Both the position numbers and the translations under genes were made by a program. From an uncultured Flavobacteriaceae bacterium (GTDB lineage Bacteria; Bacteroidota; Bacteroidia; Flavobacteriales; Flavobacteriaceae): a stretch of 43,800 bases of DNA. The notes beneath the pieces were generated by a model. The model was not told where the DNA came from and did not search any database. It worked only from the letters and a program-made list of their open reading frames with translations. Within the stretch, counting starts at the first letter, position 1. Each line of letters opens with the position of its first letter. The stretch covers positions 1 through 43,800 of the forward strand of contig CAJQNF010000003.1 of NCBI GenBank assembly GCA_905479625.1, written 5' to 3'. This document shows, piece by piece, positions 19,601 through 35,413 of this stretch.

Positions 19601-19904
19601 AAATGTCTTCAAATTGAAGATTTCCTTTATTTAGATAAAGTTTGTTCTCTACCATATTACCTGTAAAATACAGATCTATCAAACCATCATTGTTGATGTC
19701 ACCTGCAGAAACACCACCACCCATATAGATATATGCATAAGCCATATAGTTCAAAGAATCATTTTCTATCAGATTGTTAGAGAAGTTGATAGAACTATTA
19801 TCTGAATCTAATTGTTTGAATAGTTTGACAGAAGGTTTTGCTCCTGGATTGGAGCAAGAAAGCAATAAAGTGCTGACTGATAGAAAAAACAAAATATTTT
19901 TCAT
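16605..19904 (-). CDS. Large FG-GAP/VCBS-repeat lipoprotein with UnbV (ASPIC) domain
   Basis: A 1099-residue lipoprotein: MKNILFFLSVSTLLLSCS gives lipid Cys17. I took this ATG (19904) rather than upstream ones that lengthen the leader unnaturally. The chain holds about fourteen calcium-loop motifs of the DxDxDG kind (DINNDGLID, DVNNDGFLD, DYDLDGDLD, DLNGDGLDD, DADGDGFND, DYDKDGDLD and others), as in integrin-like seven-bladed propellers. A UnbV/ASPIC module (GLGVKAYITVN... RGFQSSVAPQLHFGIG... IAWPDGKIQVL) lies around residues 505-600 and separates two propeller blocks. Such proteins commonly accompany SusCD pairs and may act in surface glycan binding. A strong hairpin (19941-19970) separates it from SusD, suggesting lower expression. 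Confidence 0.88.
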   Translation of the reverse strand: MKNILFFLSVSTLLLSCSNPGAKPSVKLFKQLDSDNSSINFSNNLIENDSLNYMAYAYIYMGGGVSAGDINNDGLIDLYFTGNMVENKLYLNKGNLQFEDISDVAGVAGDERWFTGVTMADVNNDGFLDIYCSVAGKFAPKGNLLFMNNGDSTFSEEAETYGVSDIGNTIQSTFFDYDLDGDLDLYVANYPPTNFNAPNNFYSYKMRNPRDYETDKLFRNDGDTFTDVTVEAEIRSFGLTNSATVGDINGDGWPDIYISNDFNVPDYMLINDGDGTFSEHSKELTKQTALYGMGVDIADFNNDQLLDIIQMDMTPGNNRRSKANMSGMNPDLFWGTVNAGFHYQYMQNQLQMNNGNIHDSLPSFSNVARIAGLATTDWSWGPLIADLDNDGWKDIYISNGTRREINNKDYFNKLKKEKMTKDQFLEKSLAIPSEKIDNFVFRNNGDLTFDKMNEAWGLEFVGWSNGCVYVDLDNDGDLEIVVNNIDDKAAIFENFSSDHNNFMTLNFNGPDKNKSGLGVKAYITVNEVTQFQEMTLTRGFQSSVAPQLHFGIGSAIQADEIKIAWPDGKIQVLNNVDKNQFLTIDYKNAGIDEKPLLTKVKPLFKTENNPSIVMNHKHSENEYDDFKDQVLLPHKMSTLGPGATVGDLNGDGLDDFVIAGAHNNQTAVYYQTAEGFLRQHFPDVDNDSDREDLGSLIFDADGDGFNDLYVVSGGNEFDYNSELLQDRLYLNDGKGNLSKTASALPEMIISGSRVQEYDYDKDGDLDLFIGGRLIPKNYPMATSSYILENVSTKGHPKFVNATEKIAPGLIDLGMVTDASWTDYDQDGWVDLIIVGEWMPITVFRNNRGSFENITEKLNLNDATGWWFSIEEGDFDQDGDIDFIVGNLGLNYKYKANEEETFDIYLNDFDKNQKNDIVLSYYDEGEKFPVRGRQCSSEQVPGIKKKFEDYDAFAVATLEDVYTKKSLESALHYQVKSFASIYLENKDGEFVIHNLPNMSQLSSVNQILVKDFNNDQHLDVVIAGNLYGSEVETPRNDAGFGLYLEGDGKGGFKAVPPTESGLYIPGDTKDLTFINIKDKKYIIAAKNDDYVQFIELVAGP

Positions 19905-19940
19905 GATCATAAGAGGTTCTATTTGGGGTATAAAAATACA

Positions 19941-19970
19941 AAAACAGAGCATTATTTAATGCTCTGTTTT
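19941..19970 (-). terminator. Strong hairpin between SusD and the FG-GAP lipoprotein gene
   Basis: AAAACAGAGCATTA (19941-19954) and TAATGCTCTGTTTT (19957-19970) form a perfect stem of 13-14 bp. On the minus strand it is followed by a T-rich stretch (TGTATTTTTATA). It lies 31 nt after the SusD stop and 37 nt before the next start. It would terminate most SusCD transcripts and allow limited read-through. Confidence 0.75.
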
Positions 19971-20001
19971 AGTTAAATTAAGATAAAAAATATCTTGTTG
20001 A

Positions 20002-21690
20002 TTACCACTCTGGGTTTTGCGTCAATGTACCACTACTTTGGTCAATAGCACCAACTGGTACCGGGAACAAGTTGTGTTTATTTGCAGCTCCAGCAAATTT
20101 AGGTCCGAAGTTTGGAATAGTTCTTACTTCGTTACCAACATATTCTGTCATTGTGTCAACGAGTACATTCCATCTTCTAAGATCAAACAAACGATGTCCT
20201 TCCATTGCAAGCTCTAATCTTCTCTCCATTCTCACAGCTTTTCTAGCCTGATCTTGTGATCCAAAATCACCAGCAGCATAAAGTCCGATGTCATAATTAG
20301 CAGCATCAGATCCGTCAGCAGCTTTAATAGGAGTACTGTCAATTGCTCTTTGACGAACTTGATTAACATAGCCAAGTGCAGTAGGTAAATCATTCGTTTC
20401 AACAGCAGCTTCAGCAGCCATTAATAATACATCAGCATATCTGATAAAGTGATAGTTGATACCAGAGCGTTGTTCACCCCAGCCACCAGCTCCGACTTGA
20501 GAGTCTTCACCTGCCCAGTATACATTCTTACGTCCTAAGTATGGTCCTGAAATATCAGTAAAACCAGCTCTTACCCAATCTTTACCTGGGTTAATGTCCC
20601 AGTTATTGTAATTGATACCACGTCTACCGGCAGTATAATCAACTCTTGGGTCAAGAGTTCCTGTGTGCATTGTAAAAGAGTCACCACTTTCAAGCCCAGC
20701 ATCATTAGCAACATCAGTATCATTATACGTATCCAATAATGGTAAACCACCACTTGTTTGGAATGCGTTAACTAAATCTTGAGTAGGTTGATAGAATCCA
20801 CAACACCATCCGTTAGGCCCTTGGTAATTCAAAACACCACCTTGGTTTCCGTTTGGTGCGAAAGCCCCACCAATTGGACTGAATTCAATAGCGAAAATAT
20901 TTTCGCTTCCTTGTTCTCCAGCAACTCTAAAGTTATCTCCATATTCAGGTAATAAAGAGTATTTACCACCATTGATAACTCCCTCGAATGCTCCTAAAGC
21001 TTCAGAATATGCTCCCTGATACAATTTAGATTTACCCCAATAAGCTTGTGCAGCCCAATTAGTAGCTCTACCAAAATCGCCTTGGTCATCCGGAAGATTT
21101 TGAGTTGCAAATAAGAAATCTGCATCGATAGCAGCCCATAATGGCGTACCATTTGGTTGAGCAAAATCGGTGTCAGCATAATTTTGTTCACTAATATATG
21201 TAGCGTATTGACCCCACATAATTTGCAATTGGAAATTATAATGACCTCTTAAAAATCTAGCTTCAGCCAATTGATTCTTAAAAGTAACTTCTCCACCTTC
21301 AGCACCAAGGATTAATGCAATTACTGCATTTGCTCTGTTTGCTCCTGCATACAGTGCTCTCCATTTTGATCCTAAATAAGAAAGTCCGGTAGTCCAGTCA
21401 TAAACTTCTAATCTGAATAATGTTTGCTGGTCACCATCATTACTACCTTTGTGTGCATCATCTGCAATCACATCCATCCACCAGTTATCACCGGTAGCTT
21501 CCCATCCACCTGAGGCATTAGTTACACCATCTAAAGAGCTGTAAGCAGCTGTCAATAGAAAGTTAACTCCATCTGTATTTGCTAATGCATCAGGATTTAA
21601 CGTACCGATTTCAATCGTTTCGCTAAATTCATCGCTACATGCTAATACACTCATTAGCAAAAGCATTATATAAAATATTCTGTTTTTCAT
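20002..21690 (-). CDS. RagB/SusD family nutrient-binding lipoprotein
   Basis: A 562-residue surface lipoprotein that caps a SusC channel and captures glycans. The signal MKNRIFYIMLLLMSVLACSDEF gives lipid Cys18, and the following SDEFSE resembles the lipoprotein export signal that sends Flavobacteriia lipoproteins to the cell surface. The N-terminal region has the SusD helices (VNFLLTAAYSSLDG, KWRALYAGANRANAVI, AEARFLRGHYNFQLQIMWG). The C-terminal region has NYHFIRYADVLLMAAEAAVETND, QVRQRA, RMERRLELAMEGHRLFDLRRW and the closing NLFPVPVGAIDQSSGTLTQNPEW. Only 3 nt separate it from the SusC stop, so the pair is one operon. Substrate cannot be read from sequence. Confidence 0.95.
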   Translation of the reverse strand: MKNRIFYIMLLLMSVLACSDEFSETIEIGTLNPDALANTDGVNFLLTAAYSSLDGVTNASGGWEATGDNWWMDVIADDAHKGSNDGDQQTLFRLEVYDWTTGLSYLGSKWRALYAGANRANAVIALILGAEGGEVTFKNQLAEARFLRGHYNFQLQIMWGQYATYISEQNYADTDFAQPNGTPLWAAIDADFLFATQNLPDDQGDFGRATNWAAQAYWGKSKLYQGAYSEALGAFEGVINGGKYSLLPEYGDNFRVAGEQGSENIFAIEFSPIGGAFAPNGNQGGVLNYQGPNGWCCGFYQPTQDLVNAFQTSGGLPLLDTYNDTDVANDAGLESGDSFTMHTGTLDPRVDYTAGRRGINYNNWDINPGKDWVRAGFTDISGPYLGRKNVYWAGEDSQVGAGGWGEQRSGINYHFIRYADVLLMAAEAAVETNDLPTALGYVNQVRQRAIDSTPIKAADGSDAANYDIGLYAAGDFGSQDQARKAVRMERRLELAMEGHRLFDLRRWNVLVDTMTEYVGNEVRTIPNFGPKFAGAANKHNLFPVPVGAIDQSSGTLTQNPEW

Positions 21691-21693
21691 TTT

Positions 21694-24600
21694 TTAAAAT
21701 TTAATATTTAAACCTATAGTAAATATCTGTGACAGAGGATAAGTTCTAGAATCTATCCCCATGTTTAAGTTCTCAGCTTGACCACCAATAGATCTTGGAA
21801 GAATCTCAGGGTCAACACCACTATATGATGTAATTGTGAACAAGTTAGTTCCTTGTAAATAGATTCTAAATCTTTCCATACCCATTTTGTCTGTTGTAGC
21901 AGAAGGTAGAGAATATCCTAATTGTAAGTTTTTCAATCTAAAGAAAGAACCGTCTTCAACAAAGAAGCTGTTTGCATTCACTTCTACACCATTTAAGCTA
22001 TTGCTCAAAGCTGGATAAGTAGCATTCGTATTATCTGGTCTCCAAGAATCAATAACATCTGTAGTTCTGTTTCCGTTCGGGAAGATCGGGAAGTTAAATG
22101 CTTTTGTGTGATTATAGATATCGTTTCCTTGCGATCCGTTAAAGAAAGCAGAAAGATCGAAACCTTTAAATCCAGCATTTAAGTTCAAACCATAAGTGAA
22201 ATCAGGATGAGGACTACCAATTTTTGTTCTATCACCATCATCAACAACTTGATCTCCATTTACGTCTTCATATTCAAATCTACCAGTATCAGAAAATCCT
22301 GAAACCTGACGACCATAGAAGTAAGAAATTGGTTCTCCTTCTGAAGTTCTTGTATAAGCTCCAGCCCAACTAGTTAATGCATTACCATTAATTGGAGTTC
22401 CGTTTACCAATGACTTTACCTCATTTTTATAGTGAGACAAGTTAAAGTTGGCACCAAAAGATAATCCATTGTCCCAAGTGTTGTTATAACCAACAGACCA
22501 GTCAATACCTGTATTGTTAACCTCACCTAAATTTACAAATGGTGGCGGTGCTTCAGGTCCTGTAGATGGAATCAAGTTACTATTTCTTGCAAACAAACCA
22601 TCAGTTACAATCTGATAAAATTCGATTGAAGTTGATAACTTACTACTAAAGAAATCTAATTCTATACCAATGTTACTAGTATTACTTTTTTCCCATTTCA
22701 AGTCTTCATTTCCAATCTGATCCTGTATAGCACCTGTACTTAAAGAATTTCCAAACACGTAATTTGCGGTATTTTCGTTAAAGGCATACAAAGTTTGAGT
22801 CGGGTTGTTTACAGGAAGATCCTGGCTACCTAACTGACCCCATGATCCTTTTAACTTCAAACGGTTTAAAACACCAGAATTGTTAAACCAATCTTCATTA
22901 CTCATCACCCAACCTGCGCTAACTGATGGAAAAACATCTGATTTGTTATCACCTGCAAAACGAGAACTCTTGTCATAACGTAAAGTACCAGTAAAGAAAT
23001 ATTTCTGCTTGTAGTTATAATCTGCTGAACCAAAAACGGAAAATAATGTAAAACCATTCTCATAAGCATAAGTTACATTTGGTGGATCAAATCCATTAGC
23101 TAACGTATAAAAATTAGGAGATTCATTGAAGTAATTTTGACGATTTACTCCTTTACCTTTATTAGAATTTTCTAGTGCTTCAGTCGCTATAAATACATTT
23201 AAGTTGTGATTGTCAGCAAAAGTATTTCTATACATTAACATATTTGTCCAAGTCCAGTTAAAAAATGTTTGGTCTTGTTCCTCTAATGTGTTTTTAGAAG
23301 CTGCTTCACCATGTTCTGGATCTAAAGGACTAAAATTTCTTGTATCAAAGATTCCAATACTACCAGCAAAAGTAGTCTTGAACGTCAAGTTATCAGTAAT
23401 ATCATATGAAGCATATACATCTCCAAAAGTTCTGATGTTTCTAAGATAGTTGTCCTTCGCTCTATAAAGTAAAGCATAAGGTTGTCTCGTGTTAGAAAGA
23501 TCTGTTGAATTACTGAAAGTACCTGCAAACTGAGGCTCATCAAATCCTGGTCTCTCACCATAAACAGCCATCAATGGAGTCGCTCTAAAAGCTGATTCCC
23601 AACCTTCACTGTTTCCTTGTTGTTCTGTTGTATAAGATACATTTAAATGTTGTCCTATTTTTAATCTTTCAGTAGGCTTAAATTCATTGTTCACCTGTAT
23701 ACTTGCTTTTGCAAAACCAGTGTGTTTAATAACACCACCTCTGTTCAAATAATTAATAGACATAAATGACTTACTGGTTTCAGTACCACCAGCCAGAGAT
23801 ACAGTAGCTGAAACTGTTGGCGCAGATTGAGTGATCTCATTCCACCAGTTTGTACCACCAGGTTGAACCGGCACTACCCAGTCTGCTCCTTTAGATCCAG
23901 ATAGATCTAAAACAGATGGAAGTACAGGGCCATTTGGATCTCTACCATATTGTACATGACCTCTAAAGTCTCCTCCACCATTGTTAACATCGTTGGTATA
24001 ACCTTCCCAAAGCATGTCAGCATGTTGCTGAAGATTCATTAAACTTGGATCATTCACAGTTTGAGAGACACCAGTATAGATATCAACAGTGATTGAAGAT
24101 TTTTCCATATTATAGCTACCACTTTTAGTAGTTACAATAATAACTCCATTCGATGCTCTAGAACCATAGATTGCTGCAGCACCATCCTTCAAAACGTTCA
24201 TCTGATCGATGTCACCTGGATTGATAGATGTAAGCACATTAGCATCAGTAGTTTGAACTCCGTCAATAATGTAAAGAGGTCCAGTACCATTGGTAGAACC
24301 AATACCACGAATGTTAACATTCGGAGCAGCTCCTGGAGCACCATTACTAAGAACTTGAACACCTGTTACCCTACCTTGTAGAGCTTCTGCAGCATTCACT
24401 GTTGGTACCTTAAGTGCTTCGTCCATGTCTACAGAAGCAACCGAACCGGTAATATCTCCTCTAGTCTGTTGAGAATAACCAACAACAACTACTTCTTCAA
24501 GGGTGTTGTCTCCACCAGCAAGCGTAATGTTGATCACGGAATCACTACCAATAGTAGCACTTCCTGTTGTCATTCCAATAAAGCTAAACTCTAAAACGTC

Positions 24601-24801
24601 ACCTTCATTGGCTTCAATGGAATAATTCCCATCGAAATCACTAGTAACACCATTAGAGGTGCCCTGAACAACTACAGTTGCTCCAGGCAATGGCCCGTCA
24701 GCGTCTGAGACTGTTCCTGTGATCGTCTTTTGCGCCATTGTAAAGCCGCAGGTCAAGAAGATCCCCAGAATGATTAAACTTTTAAATAATTGTTTTCCCA
24801 T
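21694..24801 (-). CDS. SusC/RagA family TonB-linked outer-membrane transporter
   Basis: A 1035-residue TonB-dependent channel. The signal peptide (MGKQLFKSLIILGIFLTCGFTMAQ) is followed by a carboxypeptidase-regulatory-like beta domain (KTITGTVSDADGPLPGATVVV... DGNYSI). Next come the TonB-box-like EEVVVVGY, the SusC plug signature (APNVNIRGIGSTNGTGPLYIIDG, DQMNVLKDGAAAIYGSRASNGVIIVTTKSG) and a long barrel ending in GLNIKF. There is no extra FecR-interacting STN domain, and no ECF sigma/anti-sigma pair nearby. Control is therefore probably by the AraC regulator at 25978 or another factor. Substrate is unknown; the neighbouring genes suggest a plant- or alga-derived glycoside. Confidence 0.96.
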   Translation of the reverse strand: MGKQLFKSLIILGIFLTCGFTMAQKTITGTVSDADGPLPGATVVVQGTSNGVTSDFDGNYSIEANEGDVLEFSFIGMTTGSATIGSDSVINITLAGGDNTLEEVVVVGYSQQTRGDITGSVASVDMDEALKVPTVNAAEALQGRVTGVQVLSNGAPGAAPNVNIRGIGSTNGTGPLYIIDGVQTTDANVLTSINPGDIDQMNVLKDGAAAIYGSRASNGVIIVTTKSGSYNMEKSSITVDIYTGVSQTVNDPSLMNLQQHADMLWEGYTNDVNNGGGDFRGHVQYGRDPNGPVLPSVLDLSGSKGADWVVPVQPGGTNWWNEITQSAPTVSATVSLAGGTETSKSFMSINYLNRGGVIKHTGFAKASIQVNNEFKPTERLKIGQHLNVSYTTEQQGNSEGWESAFRATPLMAVYGERPGFDEPQFAGTFSNSTDLSNTRQPYALLYRAKDNYLRNIRTFGDVYASYDITDNLTFKTTFAGSIGIFDTRNFSPLDPEHGEAASKNTLEEQDQTFFNWTWTNMLMYRNTFADNHNLNVFIATEALENSNKGKGVNRQNYFNESPNFYTLANGFDPPNVTYAYENGFTLFSVFGSADYNYKQKYFFTGTLRYDKSSRFAGDNKSDVFPSVSAGWVMSNEDWFNNSGVLNRLKLKGSWGQLGSQDLPVNNPTQTLYAFNENTANYVFGNSLSTGAIQDQIGNEDLKWEKSNTSNIGIELDFFSSKLSTSIEFYQIVTDGLFARNSNLIPSTGPEAPPPFVNLGEVNNTGIDWSVGYNNTWDNGLSFGANFNLSHYKNEVKSLVNGTPINGNALTSWAGAYTRTSEGEPISYFYGRQVSGFSDTGRFEYEDVNGDQVVDDGDRTKIGSPHPDFTYGLNLNAGFKGFDLSAFFNGSQGNDIYNHTKAFNFPIFPNGNRTTDVIDSWRPDNTNATYPALSNSLNGVEVNANSFFVEDGSFFRLKNLQLGYSLPSATTDKMGMERFRIYLQGTNLFTITSYSGVDPEILPRSIGGQAENLNMGIDSRTYPLSQIFTIGLNIKF

Positions 24802-25025
24802 AATAAATAATTATTAATTAATAAATTGATTGTAAGCGTGTGATTTTTTTGAAAAATCACCAAAAATTTTTTCAATGCATAAGAATAAAAGTTTTAAGAT
24901 TAACTAAAAATAATAATATACATATAACATAAATCGCCTGATAAATAACATTTTTTTAACGTTAAAAATGAAATTGATCTGAAAGCGTTAATTTTTCATA
25001 AGATTTAAATTGCAAGATATAAAAT
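24802..25025. promoter_or_regulatory. SusC leader region with hairpin and TTAACGTTAA palindrome
   Basis: A perfect 9-bp stem (GTGATTTTT at 24840-24848, AAAAATCAC at 24852-24860, 3-nt loop) lies about 40 nt upstream of the SusC start. A perfect palindrome TTAACGTTAA lies at 24956-24965, and its half-site CGTTAA recurs at 24986-24991, 26 bp away. The palindrome pair is a candidate operator; the hairpin could act in the mRNA leader. No exact TAnnTTTG box was found. Confidence 0.35.
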
Positions 25026-25826
25026 TTATTGATTCAATTCTAACAACATTATATTTTTAAATTCAACGGGGTGACTCTCGCTCTGAAGTGAGATAAAACC
25101 CTGTTTTAGAGGCTTTCCATCAAGATTGTTTAAGGTGTTATACTCCCCTCCAATCACAGGATGCTCATATTCCATGACCTGTTTGCCGTCAATAAAATGG
25201 CGAATTATCGAATCATTTCTTACTTCAATCTCCAAATTGACCCATTGTTCACCATAATACGTATCAGAACTTGAAGCGATACAATGTTCAGTGACCAATT
25301 CATTATTTATGCTGACATGTGTGCCTGGCGTACATAAATTAGCTGTACTTCTTGATTCATTGTCTGAGACCCCACCCAATAACTGTACTTCAATGCATAC
25401 CGGAAAGTTTTGATCAAGCTCCATAGATTTCGGAGATTGACAGTGAATCATAACACCGCTGTTACGAAGAGCCCAGTTTTCACCTCCTTCTACCTGCTTG
25501 CCGAGAAACCTGTATGTCATTTTGAACCTATAATTACTATAAGGTGTTTTGTAAAAAATATGTCCAAAAGAATTGTCAAAGGTTGTATAGCTGGAATAAT
25601 CAACTCTAATGGCGCTATCTATTACTGTAAAGGTATTGTTCCAGTTTTCTCCTAATGGATGACCTTTAATTTTGACTTCCCAATCTTCGAGATCCACACC
25701 ATTAAATAGGCTGATCCACTTGTCTTTTTCAGGGTCGCTTTTTTCTGTCGTTTTTTCTGTTGTTTTACAATTCATCAGTAAAAAAGACAAAAGAATAAAA
25801 AAAATTGAATTACCAAATGTACTCAT
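25026..25826 (-). CDS. DUF1080 (3-keto-disaccharide hydrolase family) lipoprotein
   Basis: A 266-residue lipoprotein with lipobox at FLLMNC (Cys20), followed by a Lys/Glu/Thr linker. The DUF1080 domain starts at WISLFNGVDLEDWEVK and includes NYRFKMTYRFLG, NSGVMIHCQ, CIEVQLLGG and a closing ISLQSESHPVEFKNIML. Family members have a concanavalin-like beta-sandwich, and some cleave glycosides already oxidised to the 3-keto form. It is the most divergent of the three copies here: the IGLQDHxxxVWFRSIKI ending of the other two is replaced by ISLQSESHPVEFKNI. It is transcribed divergently from the AraC gene and lies upstream of SusC on the same strand. Confidence 0.88.
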   Translation of the reverse strand: MSTFGNSIFFILLSFLLMNCKTTEKTTEKSDPEKDKWISLFNGVDLEDWEVKIKGHPLGENWNNTFTVIDSAIRVDYSSYTTFDNSFGHIFYKTPYSNYRFKMTYRFLGKQVEGGENWALRNSGVMIHCQSPKSMELDQNFPVCIEVQLLGGVSDNESRSTANLCTPGTHVSINNELVTEHCIASSSDTYYGEQWVNLEIEVRNDSIIRHFIDGKQVMEYEHPVIGGEYNTLNNLDGKPLKQGFISLQSESHPVEFKNIMLLELNQ

Positions 25827-25860
25827 AACGGGGTCAAAGTGCCTATTTGAACTGCAATTT

Positions 25861-25880
25861 AATACCTTTGATAAGGTATT
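25861..25880. promoter_or_regulatory. Perfect 8-bp inverted repeat, candidate operator
   Basis: AATACCTT (25861-25868), TGAT spacer, AAGGTATT (25873-25880). It lies in the 151-bp gap between the divergent DUF1080 and AraC genes, 35 bp from one start and about 100 bp from the other, where an autoregulatory AraC site could be. Whether AraC binds here is inference. Confidence 0.4.
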
Positions 25881-25949
25881 TTAAGACAAAGTCGCAAAGT
25901 TTTACAACTTCTATTAACAATATGATAAAATGAATAATTGCTAAAACTC

Positions 25950-25980
25950 TTGTAAAATCCAAGGCAAATTAATTACTTTG
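25950..25980 (+). promoter_or_regulatory. Possible promoter of the AraC gene
   Basis: TTG at 25950-25952, a 20-bp spacer and TTACTTTG at 25973-25980 resemble the -33/-7 promoter with one mismatch. The -7 box overlaps the first possible start codon (TTG at 25978). If the promoter is real, translation more likely begins at the GTG at 26008. Confidence 0.35.
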
Positions 25981-27027
25981 TCCTCCAATAATGTTCAAAA
26001 TACTTCAGTGAAAGCCAGTATACATAATATAGAGCCCTACAGGGCAGAAGGGATCGTTTATCATGCAGATACTTGTTTACCCTTAATTGATGCCGTGTCA
26101 CGAGACAAATTGAAGTTCAAGGCACTAGCGCGATACACCTATCCGGGAGATCGCCTTACAGATGATACCTTAGGTTTAAATTCCATAGGCTATTGGAATG
26201 CCATGGAACCTCAGGATTGGGGTTTGAACTGGCATAGAAATGAAGGAATTGAGATTCATTTTCTTGAATCAGGATCTATGCCTTATTCACAAGAGAGTGC
26301 AAAGACTGACTTACTTCCCAATCACCTTACTATTACTCGTCCTTGGGAGGCCCATAAAGTGGGTGATCCTAGGATAGGAATGGGTAAATTTTATTGGGTG
26401 ATCATAGATTTGGGAGTAAGGAGACCACATCAGGAATGGGTATGGCCGGATTGGATCATGATGACTAAAAACGACCTGAGTCGTTTGACAAAAATCCTTA
26501 GGCAGGATGATCAGTGGCTATGGCAGTCAAACCCAAGAATAAGAGAATGTTTTCATAAGATTGGGATAGCGGTTGATAATGATTCAGATGGTAGTAGTGC
26601 TTCTAAGATCCGTTTACTGGTCAATGAATTGTTGATTTTATTGCTGGAACTCGTTGATTCAAAAGGAGTTGTGCTTAATGAGGCGCTAACCGATAGCTCA
26701 AGAAGTGTCAAATTGTTTCTGAGAGAATTGGATAAGAATTTATCCGAAAACTGGACGATTGAACGAATGGCTGAGTCTGCCGGGGTTGGACTTACCAGGT
26801 TCACTTATCATTGCAGGCAGTTAACCAATACCACCCCAATGCGATATCTTGCGATGAAAAGAATTGAACAAGCTAAGCAAATATTGAATAAAAATCCTGA
26901 ATTGAGTATGGCAGAAGTAGCCTATAGCTGCGGCTTTGCAACAAGTCAGTATTTTTCTACCGTATTTAAGCGGCAAGAAAAATGTACACCTCTTGAATAC
27001 AAGACTAGTCTTTCAGTGTCAATCTAA
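25978..27027 (+). CDS. AraC family transcriptional regulator
   Basis: A regulator of up to 349 residues. The N-terminal ~170 residues form a cupin-like sensor (YWNAMEPQDWGLNWHRNEGIEIHFL, LTITRPWEAHKVGDP). The C-terminal ~100 residues hold two helix-turn-helix units (WTIERMAESAGVGLTRFTYHCRQL; LSMAEVAYSCGFATSQYFSTVFKRQ), ending in TPLEYK. No in-frame ATG precedes the conserved region: the start is TTG at 25978 or GTG at 26008. It faces away from DUF1080 and SusC and toward the isomerase operon, so it is the natural local regulator. The sugar ligand is unknown. Confidence 0.92.
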   Translation: MSSNNVQNTSVKASIHNIEPYRAEGIVYHADTCLPLIDAVSRDKLKFKALARYTYPGDRLTDDTLGLNSIGYWNAMEPQDWGLNWHRNEGIEIHFLESGSMPYSQESAKTDLLPNHLTITRPWEAHKVGDPRIGMGKFYWVIIDLGVRRPHQEWVWPDWIMMTKNDLSRLTKILRQDDQWLWQSNPRIRECFHKIGIAVDNDSDGSSASKIRLLVNELLILLLELVDSKGVVLNEALTDSSRSVKLFLRELDKNLSENWTIERMAESAGVGLTRFTYHCRQLTNTTPMRYLAMKRIEQAKQILNKNPELSMAEVAYSCGFATSQYFSTVFKRQEKCTPLEYKTSLSVSI

Positions 27028-27042
27028 TTTGACTATGAAGGA

Positions 27043-27069
27043 GTCGGAGTTGAGGCCTTCAGCTCCGAC
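27043..27069 (+). terminator. Hairpin after the AraC gene
   Basis: GTCGGAG (27043-27049) pairs with CTCCGAC (27063-27069). The stem extends inward through a T-G wobble and TGA/TCA, closing a 5-nt loop. It starts 15 nt after the AraC stop and is GC-rich against an AT-rich background. No T-run follows directly, so termination efficiency is uncertain. Confidence 0.5.
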
Positions 27070-27216
27070 CCATTCGGTTCTGGTTTCCTGATTCCCTGAT
27101 AATTGAGCATATAATTGGGTTCATATTGTATAATTCCTTTCACTGAATAAAAACACACAGTTTTCCGTTTTTTATAGTTTAATTTCACTGGCAGAAATCC
27201 AATTAAATTATAAAAA

Positions 27217-28218
27217 ATGAAAAAAGCAAGTCAATTAGTCAAATTGTCAACTATTGTGATAGCAATTTTGATCCTAACAGTTTTTAGTTGTGGCGAAAAA
27301 CAAAAGGAAGCTGCAGAAACAATAGAAAAGGATGAACTTGTTGAAGTAACAACACCATTTTTTAAGTTATCTCTGGCGCAATGGTCATTGAATAAAGCCG
27401 TGAGAGAAGGAGGACAAAGTCCATTGGATTTTGCACAAAAAGCAAGTGAATTAGGATTTGAAGGTGTTGAATATGTAAGTCAGTTGTACAGGAATGAACT
27501 AGAAAAGGATGCTGATCCAAAAATAGCCATGGAAACACTTTTAAAAACGTTAAAAGAAAAAAGTGAGACTTATAAAGTAGAGAATTTACTCATTATGGTT
27601 GATGGAGAAGGATATTTGGCTACATTGGATGATAATGAAAGAGCACAAACTATTGAGAATCATAAAAAATGGATTGACGCCGCCAAATTTTTGGGTTGTC
27701 ACTCTATTCGTGTAAATGCCCATGGGGAAGGAACTTATGAAGAGGTTGCTGAGGCTGCTGTAAAAGGCTTGACAGCACTTTCTTCTTATGCGGCTACCCA
27801 AGGAATTAATGTACTTGTGGAAAATCATGGAGGCTATACTTCCAACGGACAATGGCTTGCAGAGGTTATGGCCAAGGTGAACATGCCAAACTGTGGCACC
27901 TTGCCTGATTTTGGTAATTTCTGTATCACCGAAGGCTATGGCTCGATCAATAGTGAAGAATGTGACAATGCATATGATATATATAAAGGTGTCAGTGAAT
28001 TGATGCCTTATGCCAAAGCGGTAAGCGCAAAAACTTATGATTTTGATGAAAATGGGGATCAGCCGAAGATCGACTATGTCAAAATGATGCAAATTGTAAA
28101 GGATGCTGGTTATACTGGTTTTGTGGGGGTAGAATATGAAGGAGATAATTTGTCTGAAATTGATGGTATCAATGCGACTAAGGAATTATTGTTAAAGGCA
28201 GCGAGTCAGGTACAATAG
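27217..28218 (+). CDS. Lipoprotein sugar isomerase/epimerase-like TIM barrel
   Basis: A 333-residue lipoprotein: the signal ends at LILTVFSC (Cys25), then a Glu/Lys-rich linker. The rest is a xylose-isomerase-like TIM barrel (AP_endonuc_2 family): FFKLSLAQWSLNKAV, LGFEGVEYVSQLY, GCHSIRVNAHGEG, INVLVENHGGY, CGTLPDFGNFC, AVSAKTYDFDENG and GFVGVEYEGD. Glu in VENHGG and Asp in LPDFGN are in positions that bind divalent metal in the family. Export of such a barrel means it acts on free sugars or keto-sugars in the periplasm. It heads a compact operon with the next two genes (gaps of 21 and 24 nt). Confidence 0.88.
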   Translation: MKKASQLVKLSTIVIAILILTVFSCGEKQKEAAETIEKDELVEVTTPFFKLSLAQWSLNKAVREGGQSPLDFAQKASELGFEGVEYVSQLYRNELEKDADPKIAMETLLKTLKEKSETYKVENLLIMVDGEGYLATLDDNERAQTIENHKKWIDAAKFLGCHSIRVNAHGEGTYEEVAEAAVKGLTALSSYAATQGINVLVENHGGYTSNGQWLAEVMAKVNMPNCGTLPDFGNFCITEGYGSINSEECDNAYDIYKGVSELMPYAKAVSAKTYDFDENGDQPKIDYVKMMQIVKDAGYTGFVGVEYEGDNLSEIDGINATKELLLKAASQVQ

Positions 28219-28239
28219 TGCTACAATTTTTTAAGTAAT

Positions 28240-29376
28240 ATGAGCTCAAAGATCAGGTTAGGAATTTTAGGAGGAGGAGGTGATTCTCTTATAGGAGTAT
28301 TGCATCGCGTAGCGGCCAGCATGTTTGATCAATATCAGATTGTCGGTGGTGTTTTTAATCCTGTTTGGGACGAGAATGTCAGTTTTGCTGAAAAGATAGG
28401 ACTCCCAACTCATAGGGTCTATAAAGATTTTGAAACGTTGATCAGGGAAGAGGTGAGATTGCCTGAAAATGAAAGGATGCAGGTAATTTCTATACTGACA
28501 CCTAACTTTCTCCATTATCCAATGGCCAAAAAATTACTGGAGAATGGATTTCATGTGATCTGCGAAAAACCATTAACCACAACCTACGAGGAGGCACTGG
28601 ATCTCAAGAAAACGCAGGAGCTTTCAAATAATGTTTTTGCTGTTACTTATACCTATACAGGCTATCCAATGGTGAGGCAAATGAGGAAAATGGTCGAAGA
28701 AGGGGTTCTGGGAAAAATTCAGAAAATAGATGTTCAGTACTACCAGGGATGGATCAATCCTGTAATTCACGATCCTGCAAAAAGAGCCGAAACTTGGCGT
28801 TTGCAACCAGAGAAATCCGGTATTAGCTGTTGTATTGGAGACATAGGAACTCACGCCTATGATATGATTGAATTTGTTTCTGGTTTGCAGGTAAATAAAG
28901 TATTGTCAGACTTGAATTATTTGTATGAAGACAATAAAATGGATATTGATGGGACTGTCCTGATCAGATGTGCCGAAGGCGTGAAGGGTGTTATCAGGGC
29001 AAGTCAGATCGCTACAGGCGAGGAGAATAGTTTTGTCGTAAAAATCTACGGAGAGAAGGCCGGGATCAAATGGGAACAGGAGAACCCTAACTATGTTTAC
29101 CTCATGGAAGACGGACAAGCTTTGAAAGTACTGAAGCCCGGTCATTTGTACAATAGTGATTTGTCATTAGACGGAACCAAATTACCTCCGGGACATCCTG
29201 AAGGAATATTTGATGCCATGGGTAACATATATAAAGGTGTGGCCAGAGCTATTAAGGGAGAGCCATATGATTCAGGAGAGTTCCCAACGATTATGGATGG
29301 CCTTAGAGGCATGAATTTTATAGAACAAACAGTTGCCTCAAATGCTGAAGGTAATGTGTGGAAAGATCTTGACTGA
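28240..29376 (+). CDS. Gfo/Idh/MocA family oxidoreductase, no export signal
   Basis: A 378-residue NAD(P)-dependent oxidoreductase lacking a signal peptide, so probably cytoplasmic. The Rossmann part begins LGILGGGGDSLIGVLHR. The second strand ends GGVFN, lacking the usual acidic residue that favours NAD. The family EKP motif is at FHVICEKPLTTT, and the catalytic segment is CCIGDIGTHAYDMIEF. Family members oxidise or reduce sugar hydroxyls, often at C3. It sits between the isomerase (21 nt upstream) and a DUF1080 gene (24 nt downstream), so these three are one operon. A role in making or reducing a 3-keto sugar is inferred from that context. Confidence 0.92.
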   Translation: MSSKIRLGILGGGGDSLIGVLHRVAASMFDQYQIVGGVFNPVWDENVSFAEKIGLPTHRVYKDFETLIREEVRLPENERMQVISILTPNFLHYPMAKKLLENGFHVICEKPLTTTYEEALDLKKTQELSNNVFAVTYTYTGYPMVRQMRKMVEEGVLGKIQKIDVQYYQGWINPVIHDPAKRAETWRLQPEKSGISCCIGDIGTHAYDMIEFVSGLQVNKVLSDLNYLYEDNKMDIDGTVLIRCAEGVKGVIRASQIATGEENSFVVKIYGEKAGIKWEQENPNYVYLMEDGQALKVLKPGHLYNSDLSLDGTKLPPGHPEGIFDAMGNIYKGVARAIKGEPYDSGEFPTIMDGLRGMNFIEQTVASNAEGNVWKDLD

Positions 29377-29400
29377 TCTTTCATAAATAGAGAAAATATC

Positions 29401-30132
29401 ATGAAAAAATACTTGATTCCTTTGTTTGCAACTTTCCTGATTTGGGGATGTAAAAAAGAAATAAAAACGGATGATAATACCAAGGAAATAGTTGTAGCCA
29501 ATGATGATGGCTGGATCAACCTTTTTGACGGAAAGAGTTTTGATGGCTGGCATACTTATTTACAAGATACTATATCGAGTCAATGGCAAATTGAAGACGG
29601 TGTTATGTTCTACAAACCTGATCCTGACAAGAATCAGGGAGTGAATAATCTGATTACCGACAAAACCTATGAGAATTATGAATTATCATTAGACTGGAAA
29701 ATCTCAATTGATGGAAATAGTGGTGTTTTTTATGGAGTGCTCGAAGATGAAAAATTTGTAGTTCCTTATATGACTGCACCTGAAGTGCAAATAAGAGATT
29801 ATACCAACATCCCTGATTTTACAGATAAGCAACAAATGTCAGGAGCCATTTTTGGTATCGTTGGTATTGAAGAGGATATCGCAAAAAAAGCAGGTGAATG
29901 GAATCATTTTTTGATCAGAATTGACCACGACAATAATGAAGGAAGTGTCACCTTAAATGATAAGGAAGTTGCTAAATTCCCGGTTAATGGAGAAGCATGG
30001 AAAGCCCTGGTTGAAAATTCAAAATTCAAGGATTGGGAAGGTTTTGGAATTACACAAAAGGGTCATATTGGATTGCAGGATCATGCCTATGGGGTTTGGT
30101 TTAGAAGTATAAAAATCAGAGAGTTGAGGTAG
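29401..30132 (+). CDS. DUF1080 (3-keto-disaccharide hydrolase family) lipoprotein
   Basis: A 243-residue lipoprotein (MKKYLIPLFATFLIWGCKKE, Cys17). DUF1080 landmarks are GWINLFDGKSFDGWHTY, YELSLDWKISIDGNSGVFYG, APEVQIRD, AGEWNHFLIRI and the closing HIGLQDHAYGVWFRSIKIREL. It closely parallels the copy at 32057, including a 25-nt identical stretch near the 3' end (30094-30118). It is the last gene of the isomerase-oxidoreductase operon. Predicted role: hydrolysis of a 3-keto-glycoside at the envelope. Confidence 0.92.
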   Translation: MKKYLIPLFATFLIWGCKKEIKTDDNTKEIVVANDDGWINLFDGKSFDGWHTYLQDTISSQWQIEDGVMFYKPDPDKNQGVNNLITDKTYENYELSLDWKISIDGNSGVFYGVLEDEKFVVPYMTAPEVQIRDYTNIPDFTDKQQMSGAIFGIVGIEEDIAKKAGEWNHFLIRIDHDNNEGSVTLNDKEVAKFPVNGEAWKALVENSKFKDWEGFGITQKGHIGLQDHAYGVWFRSIKIRELR

Positions 30133-30420
30133 TTCAGAGTTGAAGGTAAAGGATATTGTCAAATTGACTTAAATTATTCAAGTTTAGGCTAATTTTATAG
30201 GCAGAATTAAAAGAATTTTAAGGATTAGTTAGTATATTTACTTTTTATGAATGAATTCCCCCAATGTACGGTAACATATATGCTAAATAAATAGATAATA
30301 GTTTAGCTTTTCATTTGGCTGTGAAAATAATGTCAATTAAAATGATAAAAAAGAGTTTAAGATTTTAAATTAAGTATATAAATCACCGATTTTTTCTAAT
30401 TAATTAATTTATGTAATATT
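30133..30420. other. Gene-free region between two sugar-oxidation modules
   Basis: 288 bp of AT-rich DNA with no credible gene. It contains GTCAAATTGAC (30158-30168, an odd palindrome), an imperfect repeat around 30167-30183, and a TATATTTA near-match to the -7 box at 30233-30240. It probably carries the promoter of the Tat-type oxidoreductase gene, but I cannot place it firmly. Confidence 0.4.
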
Positions 30421-31932
30421 ATGAGTAAGAATAAAAAAAAGAATGCAATTTCCCGGAGGAATTTTGTAAACAAGACTTTGGTGGCAAGTGCCGGTTTTAC
30501 CATTGTACCTTCTTTTGCAGTTAGTGGTCTGGGCCATGTTGCACCAAGTGATAAATTAAATATTATCGGCGTTGGAGTTGGTGGAATGGGTCTAAGAAAC
30601 TTGAAAAATTTAAAGTCTCAAAACATTGTAGGTTTATGTGATGTAGACTGGAAATATGCCAAGGGAGCTTTTGATGAATTTCCAAAAGCAAAACAGTATT
30701 GGGACTGGCGTAAAATGTATGAGGAAATGGAAAATGAATTTGATGCAGTAGTTATTGCAACTGCCGATCATACACATGCTATCACTGCGGCACATGCCAT
30801 GACTATGGGGAAACATGTATACCTTCAAAAGCCGCTTACTCATTCTGTATATGAATCAAGATTATTGACAAACTTAGCGGCACATCACAAAGTAGCGACC
30901 CAAATGGGTAATCAAGGTGCTTCGGGAGCAGGTGTTGCCGAAACTTGTGAAATACTTTGGAGCGGAGCTCTAGGAGATGTGGTTAAAGTGGAATCTTTTA
31001 CAGATCGTCCAATATGGCCTCAAGGATTGAATATGCCAGAAGCTGTTGATCCTATTCCAGACACATTAAATTGGGAACTGTTTACAGGTCCTGCTAAAAT
31101 GCGTCCATTTAACGAAGTATATCATCCATGGAACTGGAGAGGATGGTGGGATTATGGCACAGGAGCTTTAGGAGATATGGCTTGTCATATTCTTCACCCG
31201 GTATATGAAGGTTTAAAATTAGGGTATCCAACAAAGGCACAGGCAAGTTCATCATTATTATTAAATGATTCAGCTCCTGTTGCACAATCTGCTAAGCTGA
31301 CATTCCCTGAAAGAGGAAAAGTTGGAAGTATAAATTTACCGGAAGTTGATGTTCATTGGTATGATGGTGGTATAAAACCTGAATTACCGGATAATTGGCC
31401 AGCAGGTAAGAACCCAAATAAAAACGGGGGAGGAACTTTCTTCTACGGAACTAAAGATATTCTTCACACGGGTTGTTATGGACTTGAACCAGAATTGTTG
31501 TCAGGTAAGAAGATCACAGCACCTAAAACTGAAAGAAGGGTTGAAGAAGAAATGGGATTGACCTGGGGTGGTGGAGCTCATGAGATGGATTGGGTTAGAG
31601 CCTGTAAAGAGAGTCCAGAAAACAGAACACCATGTACTTCTGATTTTGCAGAAGCAGGTCCATTTAATGAGATGGTCGTAATGGGTGTATTGGCTGTTCG
31701 TCTTCAAGATCTTAATAAGACGCTTGATTGGGATGGTGAAAACATGAAATTTACAAATATTGGAGCCACTGAAGAAATCAGGAATATTGTTAAAGATGGG
31801 TTTGAAATTCATGATGGTCACCCAACTTTCAACAAAGATTATACTGATCCAATGAATGCATTGGCTTACTCTGAAGAGCTTGTTAAGCATACATATAGGG
31901 ATGGTTGGGAATTACCACCAATGCCTAAATAG
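30421..31932 (+). CDS. Tat-exported Gfo/Idh/MocA family oxidoreductase
   Basis: A 503-residue oxidoreductase with an N-terminal twin-arginine signal (SRRNFVNKTLVASAGFTIVP), so it is folded with cofactor before export to the periplasm. The Rossmann motif is LNIIGVGVGGMGLRNL, with an acidic residue after the second strand (VGLCDVDW) that favours NAD. The EKP-equivalent is VYLQKPLTHS, and the catalytic region is GTGALGDMACHILHP. Length exceeds the cytoplasmic family norm because of insertions in the C-terminal domain, typical of the exported Bacteroidota/Planctomycetota subfamily. A long-armed hairpin (31950-32007) separates it from the DUF1080 gene at 32057, its likely partner. Confidence 0.93.
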   Translation: MSKNKKKNAISRRNFVNKTLVASAGFTIVPSFAVSGLGHVAPSDKLNIIGVGVGGMGLRNLKNLKSQNIVGLCDVDWKYAKGAFDEFPKAKQYWDWRKMYEEMENEFDAVVIATADHTHAITAAHAMTMGKHVYLQKPLTHSVYESRLLTNLAAHHKVATQMGNQGASGAGVAETCEILWSGALGDVVKVESFTDRPIWPQGLNMPEAVDPIPDTLNWELFTGPAKMRPFNEVYHPWNWRGWWDYGTGALGDMACHILHPVYEGLKLGYPTKAQASSSLLLNDSAPVAQSAKLTFPERGKVGSINLPEVDVHWYDGGIKPELPDNWPAGKNPNKNGGGTFFYGTKDILHTGCYGLEPELLSGKKITAPKTERRVEEEMGLTWGGGAHEMDWVRACKESPENRTPCTSDFAEAGPFNEMVVMGVLAVRLQDLNKTLDWDGENMKFTNIGATEEIRNIVKDGFEIHDGHPTFNKDYTDPMNALAYSEELVKHTYRDGWELPPMPK

Positions 31933-31949
31933 TGAATACTTTACTGTAT

Positions 31950-32007
31950 AAAATACTGAACTTTTACTTTGAAGAATAATCCTCAAGACACTAAGGTTCA
32001 GTATTTT
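31950..32007 (+). repeat. 12-bp inverted repeat between oxidoreductase and DUF1080 genes
   Basis: AAAATACTGAAC (31950-31961) and GTTCAGTATTTT (31996-32007) are perfectly complementary across 34 nt, with a few further pairs inside. No T-run follows, so this looks like an intercistronic mRNA structure (stability or attenuation) rather than a classical terminator. Confidence 0.5.
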
Positions 32008-32056
32008 ACAATAATATGATCAATAATTTATTTAGTACTAATAAAATTTAATTAAA

Positions 32057-32860
32057 ATGAAAAAAAGAATTTTTGTATTTGCCATAGGAATCGCTACAGC
32101 TTCGTTTATGATGAGTTGTGGAGGCGGGGCAAAAAAAGAAGCTCCAGCTGCTGAGGCCGCTGAAGCTAAAACTGAAGTTCAGGAAGTAGCGGCACCAAAT
32201 ACCTTGACTGAAGCAGAAAAGAAAGACGGATGGGTATTACTTTTTGATGGTACAAGCTCAGAAGGATGGAGAGGCTATAAAAAGGATAATTTTCCTTCTG
32301 CCTGGCAAGTTGTTGACGGAACGATTTATATGACAGGTTCAGGTAGAGGAGAAGCCGGAGACAAAGAAGGTGGAGACATTATGTTTGACAAGGAATTCCA
32401 AAATTTCACATTGAGCCTGGAATGGAAAATTTCAGAAGGTGGTAATTCAGGGATCTTTTACTTAGGTGAAGAAAAACTTGATTATATTTGGAAAACTGCT
32501 CCTGAAATGCAGGTTTTGGATAATGATAAACATCCGGATGCGAAATTAGGTACTGATGGAAATCGCATGGCTGGATCTCTTTATGATCTTATTCCTGCAA
32601 AACCACAGAATGCAAAGCCTGTTGGGGAATGGAATCAAGTAGAAATTACTGTTTATAAAGGAACCGTGGTACACAAGCAAAATGGTGTAAATGTTGTTGA
32701 ATATCATTTATGGACTCCTGAATGGAATGAAATGGTAGCCGGAAGTAAATTCCCTAGTTTGAATGAGAACTGGGCAGATGTGGCCTCAAAAGGGTATATC
32801 GGTTTACAAGATCATGGAGATGATGTTTGGTTTAGAAGTATAAAAATCAAAGAAATGTAA
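32057..32860 (+). CDS. DUF1080 (3-keto-disaccharide hydrolase family) lipoprotein
   Basis: A 267-residue lipoprotein with lipobox FMMSC (Cys21) and a glycine then Ala/Glu/Lys-rich linker to about residue 55. The DUF1080 domain runs from GWVLLFDGTSSEGWRGY through FTLSLEWKISEGGNSGIFYLG, APEMQVLDNDKHPDA, VGEWNQVEITVYKG and GYIGLQDHGDDVWFRSIKIKEM. The KHPDAKLGTDGNRMAGSLYDLI insertion is typical of the main DUF1080 subfamily. It follows the Tat-exported oxidoreductase and is followed by a strong terminator, so it ends this unit. It is the closer paralogue of the copy at 29401. Confidence 0.93.
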   Translation: MKKRIFVFAIGIATASFMMSCGGGAKKEAPAAEAAEAKTEVQEVAAPNTLTEAEKKDGWVLLFDGTSSEGWRGYKKDNFPSAWQVVDGTIYMTGSGRGEAGDKEGGDIMFDKEFQNFTLSLEWKISEGGNSGIFYLGEEKLDYIWKTAPEMQVLDNDKHPDAKLGTDGNRMAGSLYDLIPAKPQNAKPVGEWNQVEITVYKGTVVHKQNGVNVVEYHLWTPEWNEMVAGSKFPSLNENWADVASKGYIGLQDHGDDVWFRSIKIKEM

Positions 32861-32881
32861 TCTTAAATGTTTAGATGTAAG

Positions 32882-32911
32882 AAAGACAGTCATTTGGCTG
32901 TCTTTTTTTTT
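32882..32911. terminator. Bidirectional Rho-independent terminator
   Basis: AAAGACAG (32882-32889) and CTGTCTTT (32898-32905) form an 8-bp stem with an 8-nt loop, followed by a T-run to 32911 on the plus strand. It lies between the convergent DUF1080 and PfkB-type kinase genes and can serve both. Confidence 0.8.
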
Positions 32912-32912
32912 A

Positions 32913-33803
32913 TCATTTATCTGAATTCTGAAGATTTTCAACCTCTTGCACAGAAACATAAGCGTTGCCACCTTTTTTACTTGCCACCAAAGACCCCATG
33001 GCACATGACGTGTCAAGTGCTTTTTGAAAAGGTTTAGTTTGGACCAATTGAAAAACAAGGCTTGCTAAAAAGGAATCGCCTGCACCTACTGTATCTTTGA
33101 CTGTAACTTTGTATCCAGAGTTTTTATAAAATTTACCCTCAGCATAAAGGATCGCCCCTTTTGCTCCTAAAGTAATACACATTATAGGTGTAGTAGTTTT
33201 TTTTGATAAATCAATGATTTGCCCTTCAATTGACTTCGACGAGATCTGATAAAAGGTGATGAGTTCTTCAAGCTCCTCATCGTTGAGTTTAATCATATCT
33301 GCTTCAAGCATTAATTTGATAACAGTTTTTATTTGATAATTAGGGGGCCTCAAGTTTGCATCGAAGACTTTAAATTTGGCATGGGATAGGTAATTGAACA
33401 GCGTATTCCTTGAAATACTGTTTCTGCAAGAAAGACTCCCAAAAATAAACGCATCTGATTGAGCAATTCGTTCAATGTGGGCTTCTTCAATTGAAATTCG
33501 ATCCCAAGCTACAGGCTCTGAAATTGTATAAGTAGCCGTGTTCATTTTATCGAGATGAACCTGAACATTACCAGTTTGAAGTTCCTTATCTATTTGAATT
33601 AAATGATCATCAAAGGACTCTTTCTTTAAATAGTCCAATATACCTTTGCCATCCTGATCATTGCCGACCCTGCTGATGATACTTGATTCAGCCCCTAAAG
33701 AGTGTAATCTTAAGGCAACATTTAAAGGTGCACCCCCGATCACTTTTTTATCAGGGAATATATCCCATAAAGTTTCTCCAAAACAAACAACTTTCGGCTG
33801 CAT
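32913..33803 (-). CDS. PfkB-family carbohydrate kinase (fructokinase-like)
   Basis: A 296-residue cytoplasmic sugar kinase. The start is the ATG at 33801-33803 (MQPKVVCFGETLWDIFPDK); the longer frame to 33992 runs into the transporter gene and is discarded. The GGAPLNVALRLHSLG motif near residue 23 is that of fructokinase-type PfkB proteins. The C-terminal DTVGAGDSFLASLVF holds the catalytic aspartate and anion hole. It begins 2 nt after the sugar porter stop, so uptake and phosphorylation are coupled in one operon. Fructose or a keto-sugar is the most likely substrate, but PfkB specificity cannot be fixed from motif alone. Confidence 0.9.
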   Translation of the reverse strand: MQPKVVCFGETLWDIFPDKKVIGGAPLNVALRLHSLGAESSIISRVGNDQDGKGILDYLKKESFDDHLIQIDKELQTGNVQVHLDKMNTATYTISEPVAWDRISIEEAHIERIAQSDAFIFGSLSCRNSISRNTLFNYLSHAKFKVFDANLRPPNYQIKTVIKLMLEADMIKLNDEELEELITFYQISSKSIEGQIIDLSKKTTTPIMCITLGAKGAILYAEGKFYKNSGYKVTVKDTVGAGDSFLASLVFQLVQTKPFQKALDTSCAMGSLVASKKGGNAYVSVQEVENLQNSDK

Positions 33804-35128: not shown

Positions 35129-35413
35129 TATTTGAGATTTAATTTCATAAGGCGATGAAGATAAACTATTTACTTTAATATTTTATCTAATTAATTTGGG
35201 CCGTAAAATTGATGAGTTGGTTAAAAAATATCAAAAAACTAGATGAGCTACTTATTTTGTATTGTAAAAATTGATTTTTATTGTTGATTTTCTGTCATCT
35301 GTCGAATATATTTCAACAAGAGGCTTTTTACCTTGATTTTTGCAAAAGATTAAGTTCATGTAGGTTGGGTATTTTATTGATCTCAAATGCCTTCTTAAAG
35401 AAAGATAAAAAAT
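35129..35413. other. Divergent promoter region, porter versus nagB fusion
   Basis: 285 bp of AT-rich DNA without a gene. TTATTTTG at 35252-35259 is a one-mismatch match to the -7 box, but no -33 element lies at the right distance. No riboswitch or operator repeat is evident to me. Confidence 0.4.

Follow-up and report, generated by a model that had tools for sequence, protein, structure and literature searches.

The locus described here lies within a 43,800-nucleotide stretch (the window) of contig CAJQNF010000003.1 from an uncultured Flavobacteriaceae bacterium (assembly GCA_905479625.1), whose draft genome (G000) comprises 2.67 Mb on 151 contigs and is 84% complete. It comprises a SusC/SusD transporter arm, a divergent cluster of genes related to 3-keto-sugar chemistry, and an adjoining sugar kinase and sugar porter. 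A first-pass annotation made from the nucleotide letters alone had delimited it as 20002-32860 and had remarked that no glycoside hydrolase is encoded between 16605 and 32860. Its gene list and coordinates held, as each gene has at least one Pfam match above the curated cut-off. The remark on hydrolases was also borne out: in the 10 proteins of 16605-32860, Pfam named no hydrolase family apart from PF06439 (3keto-disac_hyd, or DUF1080; cut-off 26.8 bits), and no classical glycoside hydrolase or polysaccharide lyase family. However, the range ended too early, because the PfkB and MFS genes that follow at 32913-33803 and 33806-35128 are needed as well.

The minus-strand arm encodes an FG-GAP_3/UnbV_ASPIC lipoprotein (16605-19904), a SusD-like outer-membrane lipoprotein (20002-21690; Pfam SusD_RagB, 162 bits), a SusC/RagA TonB-linked outer-membrane channel (21694-24801; NCBIfam TIGR04056, 793 bits, cut-off 368) and a divergent DUF1080 lipoprotein (DUF1080a, 25026-25826; PF06439, 122 bits). 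SusC and SusD form a tandem separated by 3 bp. The open reading frame (ORF) of the FG-GAP gene extends to 19952, and the start at 19904 was judged better as a lipoprotein start. On the plus strand, a regulator with an AraC-type helix-turn-helix (25978-27027) is followed by a TIM-barrel lipoprotein (AP_endonuc_2, 27217-28218), a Gfo/Idh/MocA oxidoreductase (28240-29376), a second DUF1080 lipoprotein (DUF1080b, 29401-30132; 140 bits), a second Gfo/Idh/MocA protein (30421-31932) and a third DUF1080 lipoprotein (DUF1080c, 32057-32860; 179 bits). The genes from the TIM barrel onward are spaced by 21, 24, 288 and 124 bp. These three PF06439 matches are among five in the source genome. N-terminal signals were judged by eye on the translations, without a predictor; lipoprotein-like termini were seen in SusD, the FG-GAP protein, the TIM barrel and all three DUF1080 proteins, and a twin-arginine (Tat)-like RR motif in the 30421 product.

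The PfkB fructokinase-like kinase and the MFS sugar porter (TIGR00879, 354 bits, cut-off 238) are encoded on the minus strand, so that the PfkB gene converges with the 32057 gene. Because a terminator-like hairpin (32879-32908) sits between the two, the kinase and porter probably form a transcript of their own, apart from the 3-keto cluster, although such hairpins are no commoner here than in shuffled sequence. Promoter-like sites were likewise at shuffle level (73 versus 67.7). No 8-mer with at least three G or C was common to three or more of the eight intergenic stretches, and the word AAGCGT occurs twice upstream of SusC and nowhere else in them.

Two of the plus-strand products can be placed in characterized families. 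The 30421 product passes the NCBI model for BT_2158 glycoside 3-dehydrogenases (NF058561; 848 bits, cut-off 750) and matches the solved proteins 8tdf (E 9e-212) and 8tdh (E 2e-207) over its whole mature length. In Bacteroides thetaiotaomicron, BT2158 is described as a periplasmic glycoside 3-dehydrogenase on which growth with trehalose, leucrose or palatinose depends (PMC11300592). The 32057 product resembles 8v31, 3osd (BT2157), 8tda and 8rr2 at E values of about 1e-80; besides BT2157, its matches include structures titled 3-keto-glycoside eliminase/hydratase or 3-keto-2-hydroxy-glucal-hydratase. The chains of 9fbe and 8rr2 differ by Asn versus His within QD[N/H]GDD, and H275N is named as a hydration-deficient variant of the B. 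thetaiotaomicron enzyme (PMC13273386), which the Asn of 9fbe fits. The corresponding His is present in the 32057 (His253) and 29401 (His228) proteins of the window.

The first-pass annotation had counted the three DUF1080 proteins together as hydrolases. They are not equivalent: 29401 and 32057 retain the His, and the group of 25026 (25 sequences, including that of the window) has Glu at this position in 96% and a gap in the remainder; QSESHP replaces QDHGDD in 14 of 14 aligned sequences. The 25026 protein has no sequence match in the PDB at E 0.01. Its predicted model (mean predicted local distance difference test score, pLDDT, 85) finds DUF1080 structures as its top matches, including 3hbk (TM 0.58) and BT2157 (TM 0.55) at 16-18% identity, and a DUF1080 fold is thus predicted. 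The idea that it is a dead enzyme was considered and not adopted; H89, H128, H181, H210, E250 and H252 are invariant in all 14 aligned sequences.

The remaining enzymes can be assigned less closely. The TIM barrel encoded at 27217 is nearest to 4ovx (E 3e-85) and may be a second eliminase/hydratase or an epimerase. The 28240 oxidoreductase is related to 3v5n (E 3e-87) and is probably cytoplasmic, since no signal peptide was seen. The nearest solved relative of the PfkB protein, 2qhp (E 9e-40), was deposited as Fructokinase; among 23 NCBIfam rows none passes, the best being fructokinase at 112 bits against a cut-off of 450.

Taken together, these assignments point to oxidative cleavage of a glycoside through C3, which we regard as highly probable on sequence evidence. 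With uptake by SusCD included and the substrate left open, the proposal is scarcely weaker, and we would put it at about 0.8. SusCD, together with the FG-GAP/UnbV lipoprotein as third component, would bring a glucoside into the periplasm, where the Tat-exported 30421 dehydrogenase would oxidize the glucosyl C3 using bound NAD. The 32057 lipoprotein would then eliminate the aglycone and add water to give 3-keto-glucose, with 29401 and the TIM-barrel lipoprotein as probable helpers, and a Gfo/Idh/MocA enzyme would reduce 3-keto-glucose to glucose. The other product would be imported by the adjacent MFS porter, probably located in the inner membrane, and phosphorylated by the PfkB kinase. The compartments, the direction of flux and the recycling of the cofactor in this scheme are our reading of the gene content. 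The sequence of uptake, oxidation, elimination or hydration, and re-reduction that the first-pass annotation had envisaged fits the BT_2158-family 30421 protein and the BT2157-type 32057 protein.

Comparison with relatives places this locus within a larger family. AraC orthologues of at least 68% identity were found in 19 genomes, including its own, of 119 searched. Six of these loci carry a SusCD arm (in G013 the SusC gene runs off the contig), one has a truncated SusC (G017), two lie on contigs that end too early (G020 and G003), and G009 has no such arm, a histidine kinase directly adjoining AraC. The other nine carry a GMC arm, which in G019 is a contig-end fragment only. On the AraC tree, the SusCD loci together with G017, G009 and G020 fall into a single clade of nine (support 100/99). 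Outside this clade are ten loci: eight with GMC, gluconate-2-dehydrogenase subunit 3 and DUF1080a, one with the GMC fragment and one that ends early; subunit 3 and DUF1080a in the eight full loci were scored by similarity, GMC and subunit 3 being named by Pfam in sample loci. The putative AraC-DUF1080 regulon therefore exists in two forms, the SusCD importer of one clade standing in the position that a periplasmic dehydrogenase of the GMC/gluconate-dehydrogenase type occupies in the wider family. The suggestion that a regulator with three DUF1080 proteins defines a distinct variant needs adjusting accordingly: AraC with DUF1080 recurs in the family with GMC in place of SusCD, and it is the SusCD form that is confined to one clade.

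Relatives of one of the oxidoreductases (GfoB) were examined in 80 named loci, several of which, in Flavobacteriaceae such as Gelidibacter and Lutibacter, have a GMC arm beside TIM barrel, GfoB and DUF1080c. A linkage of SusC and GfoB unique to the window was rejected, as SusC genes or fragments, sought only by similarity to the SusC of the window, lie near GfoB in L071, L073, L092, L096, L118 and L124. Lutimonas saemankumensis DP2N0-7 also has a locus like that of the window (L054). Locus L038 of G017 (a genome apparently also represented by L055) has a SusC of about 450 residues and is missing SusD and FG-GAP in this metagenome-assembled genome, through decay or misassembly; at L038:16903-18246 it also encodes, after DUF1080c, an additional DUF1080 protein of 448 residues, of which about 220 N-terminal residues have no assigned domain. 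An FG-GAP/UnbV paralogue of full length lies on contig 59 of G000 (L149), where nearby genes encode a TIM barrel, a Gfo/Idh protein and proteins with domains resembling cytochromes and HZS_alpha; a similarity search recognized neither SusC nor SusD there.

The transporter arm was also followed beyond the genus. At E 1e-80 or better, the SusD family is represented in 96 of the 397 Flavobacteriaceae genomes searched, and 49 match rows reach at least 50% identity. Thirty-six loci were sampled, namely 35 hand-picked from the 46 rows of at least 50% identity outside the genus of the window, and one at 45%. In 24 of them SusD has an FG-GAP gene no more than 500 bp away, and in 33 such a gene occurs somewhere in the stretch examined. 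An FG-GAP gene was also found within 2.6 kb of SusC for 31 of 40 SusC proteins of this family versus 2 of 16 others, in a sample that was not random and counted some loci twice. By gene order, SusC, SusD and FG-GAP/UnbV are thus a recurrent putative trio. GMC matches occur in 17 of the 36 loci and DUF1080 or GfoB matches in six, 19 loci having either. One locus, L197, brings together AraC, GMC, subunit 3, DUF1080a, a GfoB-like gene and the trio; its DUF1080a and GfoB-like genes are each split into two ORFs in a frameshift-like manner. The only solved sequence matching the FG-GAP protein is cartilage acidic protein 1 (E 1e-10). Elsewhere, two or three FG-GAP/UnbV genes recur beside a GfoB-DUF1080c pair in L189 (G004), L157 (G009) and L068, accompanied by a gene of the PAP2 superfamily (Pfam; G004 and L068) and a GyrI-like gene (G004).

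The identity of the substrate was approached through the site next to the porter. GH32 (PF00251) exceeds the Pfam cut-off in 10 of the 22 genomes of the genus; only matches above 100 bits were counted (G004, G009, G010, G020 and G021), and those of 20-26 bits were set aside (G001, G002, G008, G013 and G016). The order in G004 and G009 is SusD-SusC-PfkB-MFS-GH32, then NagB-GH20. In G010 the same five genes are present, a further one preceding PfkB, and the right flank is different; in G020 SusCD, PfkB, MFS and GH32 were seen in this arrangement in pieces. In the window, G012, G013 and G014, PfkB-MFS is placed between DUF1080c and NagB; in G017 another DUF1080 gene separates DUF1080c from PfkB-MFS. 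None of these five genomes has a GH32 above 100 bits; the listed completeness of G012 and G014 is 100%, and no GH32 was found in the 84%-complete draft of the source genome. The site itself could be located at 35129-35413 by blastn, as positions 35001-35129 and 35264-35478 of the window align to L177 (G004) on either side of GH32, at 93.5% on the NagB side. G013 and G015 align straight through the site without a GH32, and no significant remnant of the gene was detected (best E 0.14). To the right of the site, one 636-residue protein (35414-37324) joins glucosamine-6-phosphate isomerase-like and PIG-L deacetylase-like domains, adjoined by a GH20 gene (37433-39499; Pfam) and an SMP-30 lactonase-like gene. 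SusC proteins of the type in the window (81-96% identity) are found in G012, G013 and G014, none of which has a GH32 above 100 bits. Across the 22 genomes, PfkB and a BT_2158 member over the cut-off are both present in 14 and both missing in six, with two mismatches (Fisher p 4e-4; a PfkB fragment at a contig end in G003 was counted as present), and PfkB and GH32 show no association (p 1); these tests ignore kinship and draft gaps, and their labels rest on thresholds that we set.

Because relatives have fructokinase, MFS and GH32 where the window has fructokinase and MFS only, joined to the 3-keto cluster, a sucrose-type substrate is suggested rather than a C- or S-glycoside. We hold sucrose or a similar fructose-releasing glucoside to be a substrate with a chance slightly short of even, odds that rest mainly on the comparison at the exact GH32 site. 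If so, the locus would most likely replace the GH32 sucrase in this lineage. The broader proposal is more tentative, namely that in one lineage of Flavobacteriaceae the GH32 hydrolase of a sucrose-type polysaccharide utilization locus (PUL) has given way, at the same chromosomal site, to an oxidative glycosidase working by C3 oxidation, elimination and re-reduction, and that SusC-SusD-FG-GAP/UnbV trios are a wider importer class feeding oxidative sugar pathways.

Several observations weigh against the sucrose reading or the scheme behind it, as do the limits of the association test given above. G001 and G003 have PfkB (as fragments) without a BT_2158 member over the cut-off. G015 and G002 have SusCD-PfkB-MFS without GH32, and in both PfkB adjoins the SusC of this arrangement, away from the 3-keto cluster; in G016 the same order can be followed until the contig ends, and PfkB-MFS stands in another setting in G007 and beside the GMC arm in G006. 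Loss of GH32 is therefore not tied to the exact fusion of PfkB with the 3-keto cluster. On the AraC tree, G004, which has GH32, falls together with the window and G013 (93/92), so that at least two losses of GH32 or one regain are needed. GH13 enzymes, which might split sucrose by another route, occur in 22 of 22 genomes, and several genomes, including that of the window, are incomplete drafts. The 36 sampled SusD-family loci contain no PfkB and a single MFS match; the fructokinase link is thus local to this genus. No BT_2159-family disaccharide 3-dehydrogenase passes in the 84%-complete draft, where the best of three matches reaches 38 bits against a cut-off of 650, and the TIM barrel of the window has no BLAST match at E 1e-3 with the one at the BT2156 position of the Bacteroides locus L118 (BT2156 itself was not compared). 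In B. thetaiotaomicron, deletion of BT2157 or BT2158 caused no defect on raffinose-family sugars, a sucrase being presumed by the authors (PMC11501099); that result therefore neither needs nor supports the sucrose reading.

The closest competitor keeps the same oxidative mechanism and changes the glucoside to trehalose, a compatible solute or a mixed pool, with the PfkB-MFS neighbour and the loss of GH32 as coincidences. We rate it a little below the sucrose-type substrate. The requirement for the B. thetaiotaomicron enzyme on several disaccharides (PMC11300592) and the kinase-free loci of a widespread SusD family would be expected of it, and SusC and SusD diverge more than FG-GAP and AraC, as if specificity shifts. 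G004 and the window share 61% identity in SusC and 57% in SusD, versus 79-96% in FG-GAP (79%), AraC (89%), GfoB, DUF1080c and TIM; for G001 the values are SusC 57%, SusD 55%, FG-GAP 72% and AraC 77%. DUF1080a varies too (70% and 55%). The absence of GH32 at the exact site and the joining of PfkB-MFS to the cluster in five genomes count against such a coincidence.

The first oxidation could instead be carried out by a GMC/gluconate-dehydrogenase-type 3-dehydrogenase encoded elsewhere, passing electrons to respiration and leaving uptake and the later steps to the locus. No GMC or subunit 3 was found in the 30 window proteins scanned, and two GMC-subunit 3 pairs lie elsewhere in G000 (contigs 61 and 59), the GMC protein of contig 61 being 63-75% identical to the full-length ones listed from AraC-DUF1080 or GfoB loci; DUF1080 proteins acting with LacABC are also the pathway proposed in PMC9007349. 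As the locus itself encodes a BT_2158-family dehydrogenase, this arrangement is improbable. Slightly less probable still is that the minus-strand transporter and the plus-strand 3-keto cluster are unrelated neighbours with only a boundary in common. The arms are divergent, G009 has no SusCD arm between its histidine kinase and AraC, and 17 of the 36 sampled SusD-family loci have no GMC, DUF1080 or GfoB match in the stretch examined; yet the other 19 do, the trio of L208, a locus among the 17, adjoins a Gfo/Idh gene, and the SusCD arm includes the AraC-linked DUF1080a in the window and five other genomes, and in a sixth with truncated SusC. That the locus serves C- or S-glycosides or unusual natural products, as put forward in the first-pass annotation, is very unlikely: a 2024 Nature study reportedly found broad specificity of homologues, thioglycosides included, but Pfam named no family of the second small C-glycoside-eliminase subunit in the 10 proteins (the subunit's own model was not searched), and synteny points to a fructose-releasing glucoside.

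Prediction of PUL substrates relies on glycoside hydrolases and would give a locus like this one no substrate. If the sucrose reading is correct, sucrose or similar sugars may be used through redox chemistry in genomes that have been scored as lacking this ability, and AraC, DUF1080a or a GMC arm occurring together with the SusC-SusD-FG-GAP trio would mark such pathways. Within one genus there is a natural series, with GH32 present, GH32 absent and its SusCD kept, and the 3-keto cluster joined; the exchange is therefore testable in cultured strains.

Among known systems, the B. thetaiotaomicron cluster BT2156-BT2160 shares the adjacent BT2158-type 3-dehydrogenase and BT2157-type DUF1080 eliminase/hydratase, both with export signals. 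Comparison of gene order thus matched this core pair and not the whole Bacteroides cluster: in the draft of the window no BT_2159 member exceeds the cut-off and the TIM barrel may be of a different kind, and the window adds a signal-less Gfo/Idh protein, two more DUF1080 proteins, AraC, the SusCD-FG-GAP arm and PfkB-MFS next door. LacABC-type systems of Caulobacter and Pedobacter, with GMC and DUF1080 (PMC9007349), resemble it in that C3 is proposed to be oxidized in the periplasm with DUF1080 taking part, and in that the orthologous AraC and DUF1080a of relatives occur with GMC and subunit 3; unlike them, the window locus has SusCD in place of a GMC pair. Operons for levoglucosan, phlorizin and puerarin, which proceed in four steps through oxidation, elimination, hydration and reduction (PMC7676230 and PMC10628242), share the reaction logic and the Gfo/Idh and TIM-barrel enzymes, whereas TIM-barrel families carry out the elimination there and the accessible portions of those texts do not mention SusCD. 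The GH32 loci of the same genus (G004, G009 and G010) have PfkB and MFS in common with the window, and in G004 and G009 also the NagB-GH20 flank; unlike them, the window lacks GH32 and that SusCD pair, and its 3-keto cluster adjoins PfkB. A search of titles and abstract openings, with most subscription papers outside its reach, found none that connects SusCD to the cleavage of sucrose through 3-keto intermediates. Both core enzymes, of BT_2158 and BT2157 type, and their chemistry are already known (PMC11300592 and PMC9007349). What is new here is the two forms of the regulon, the SusC-SusD-FG-GAP/UnbV trio, and the missing GH32 at a PfkB-MFS site joined to a 3-keto cluster.

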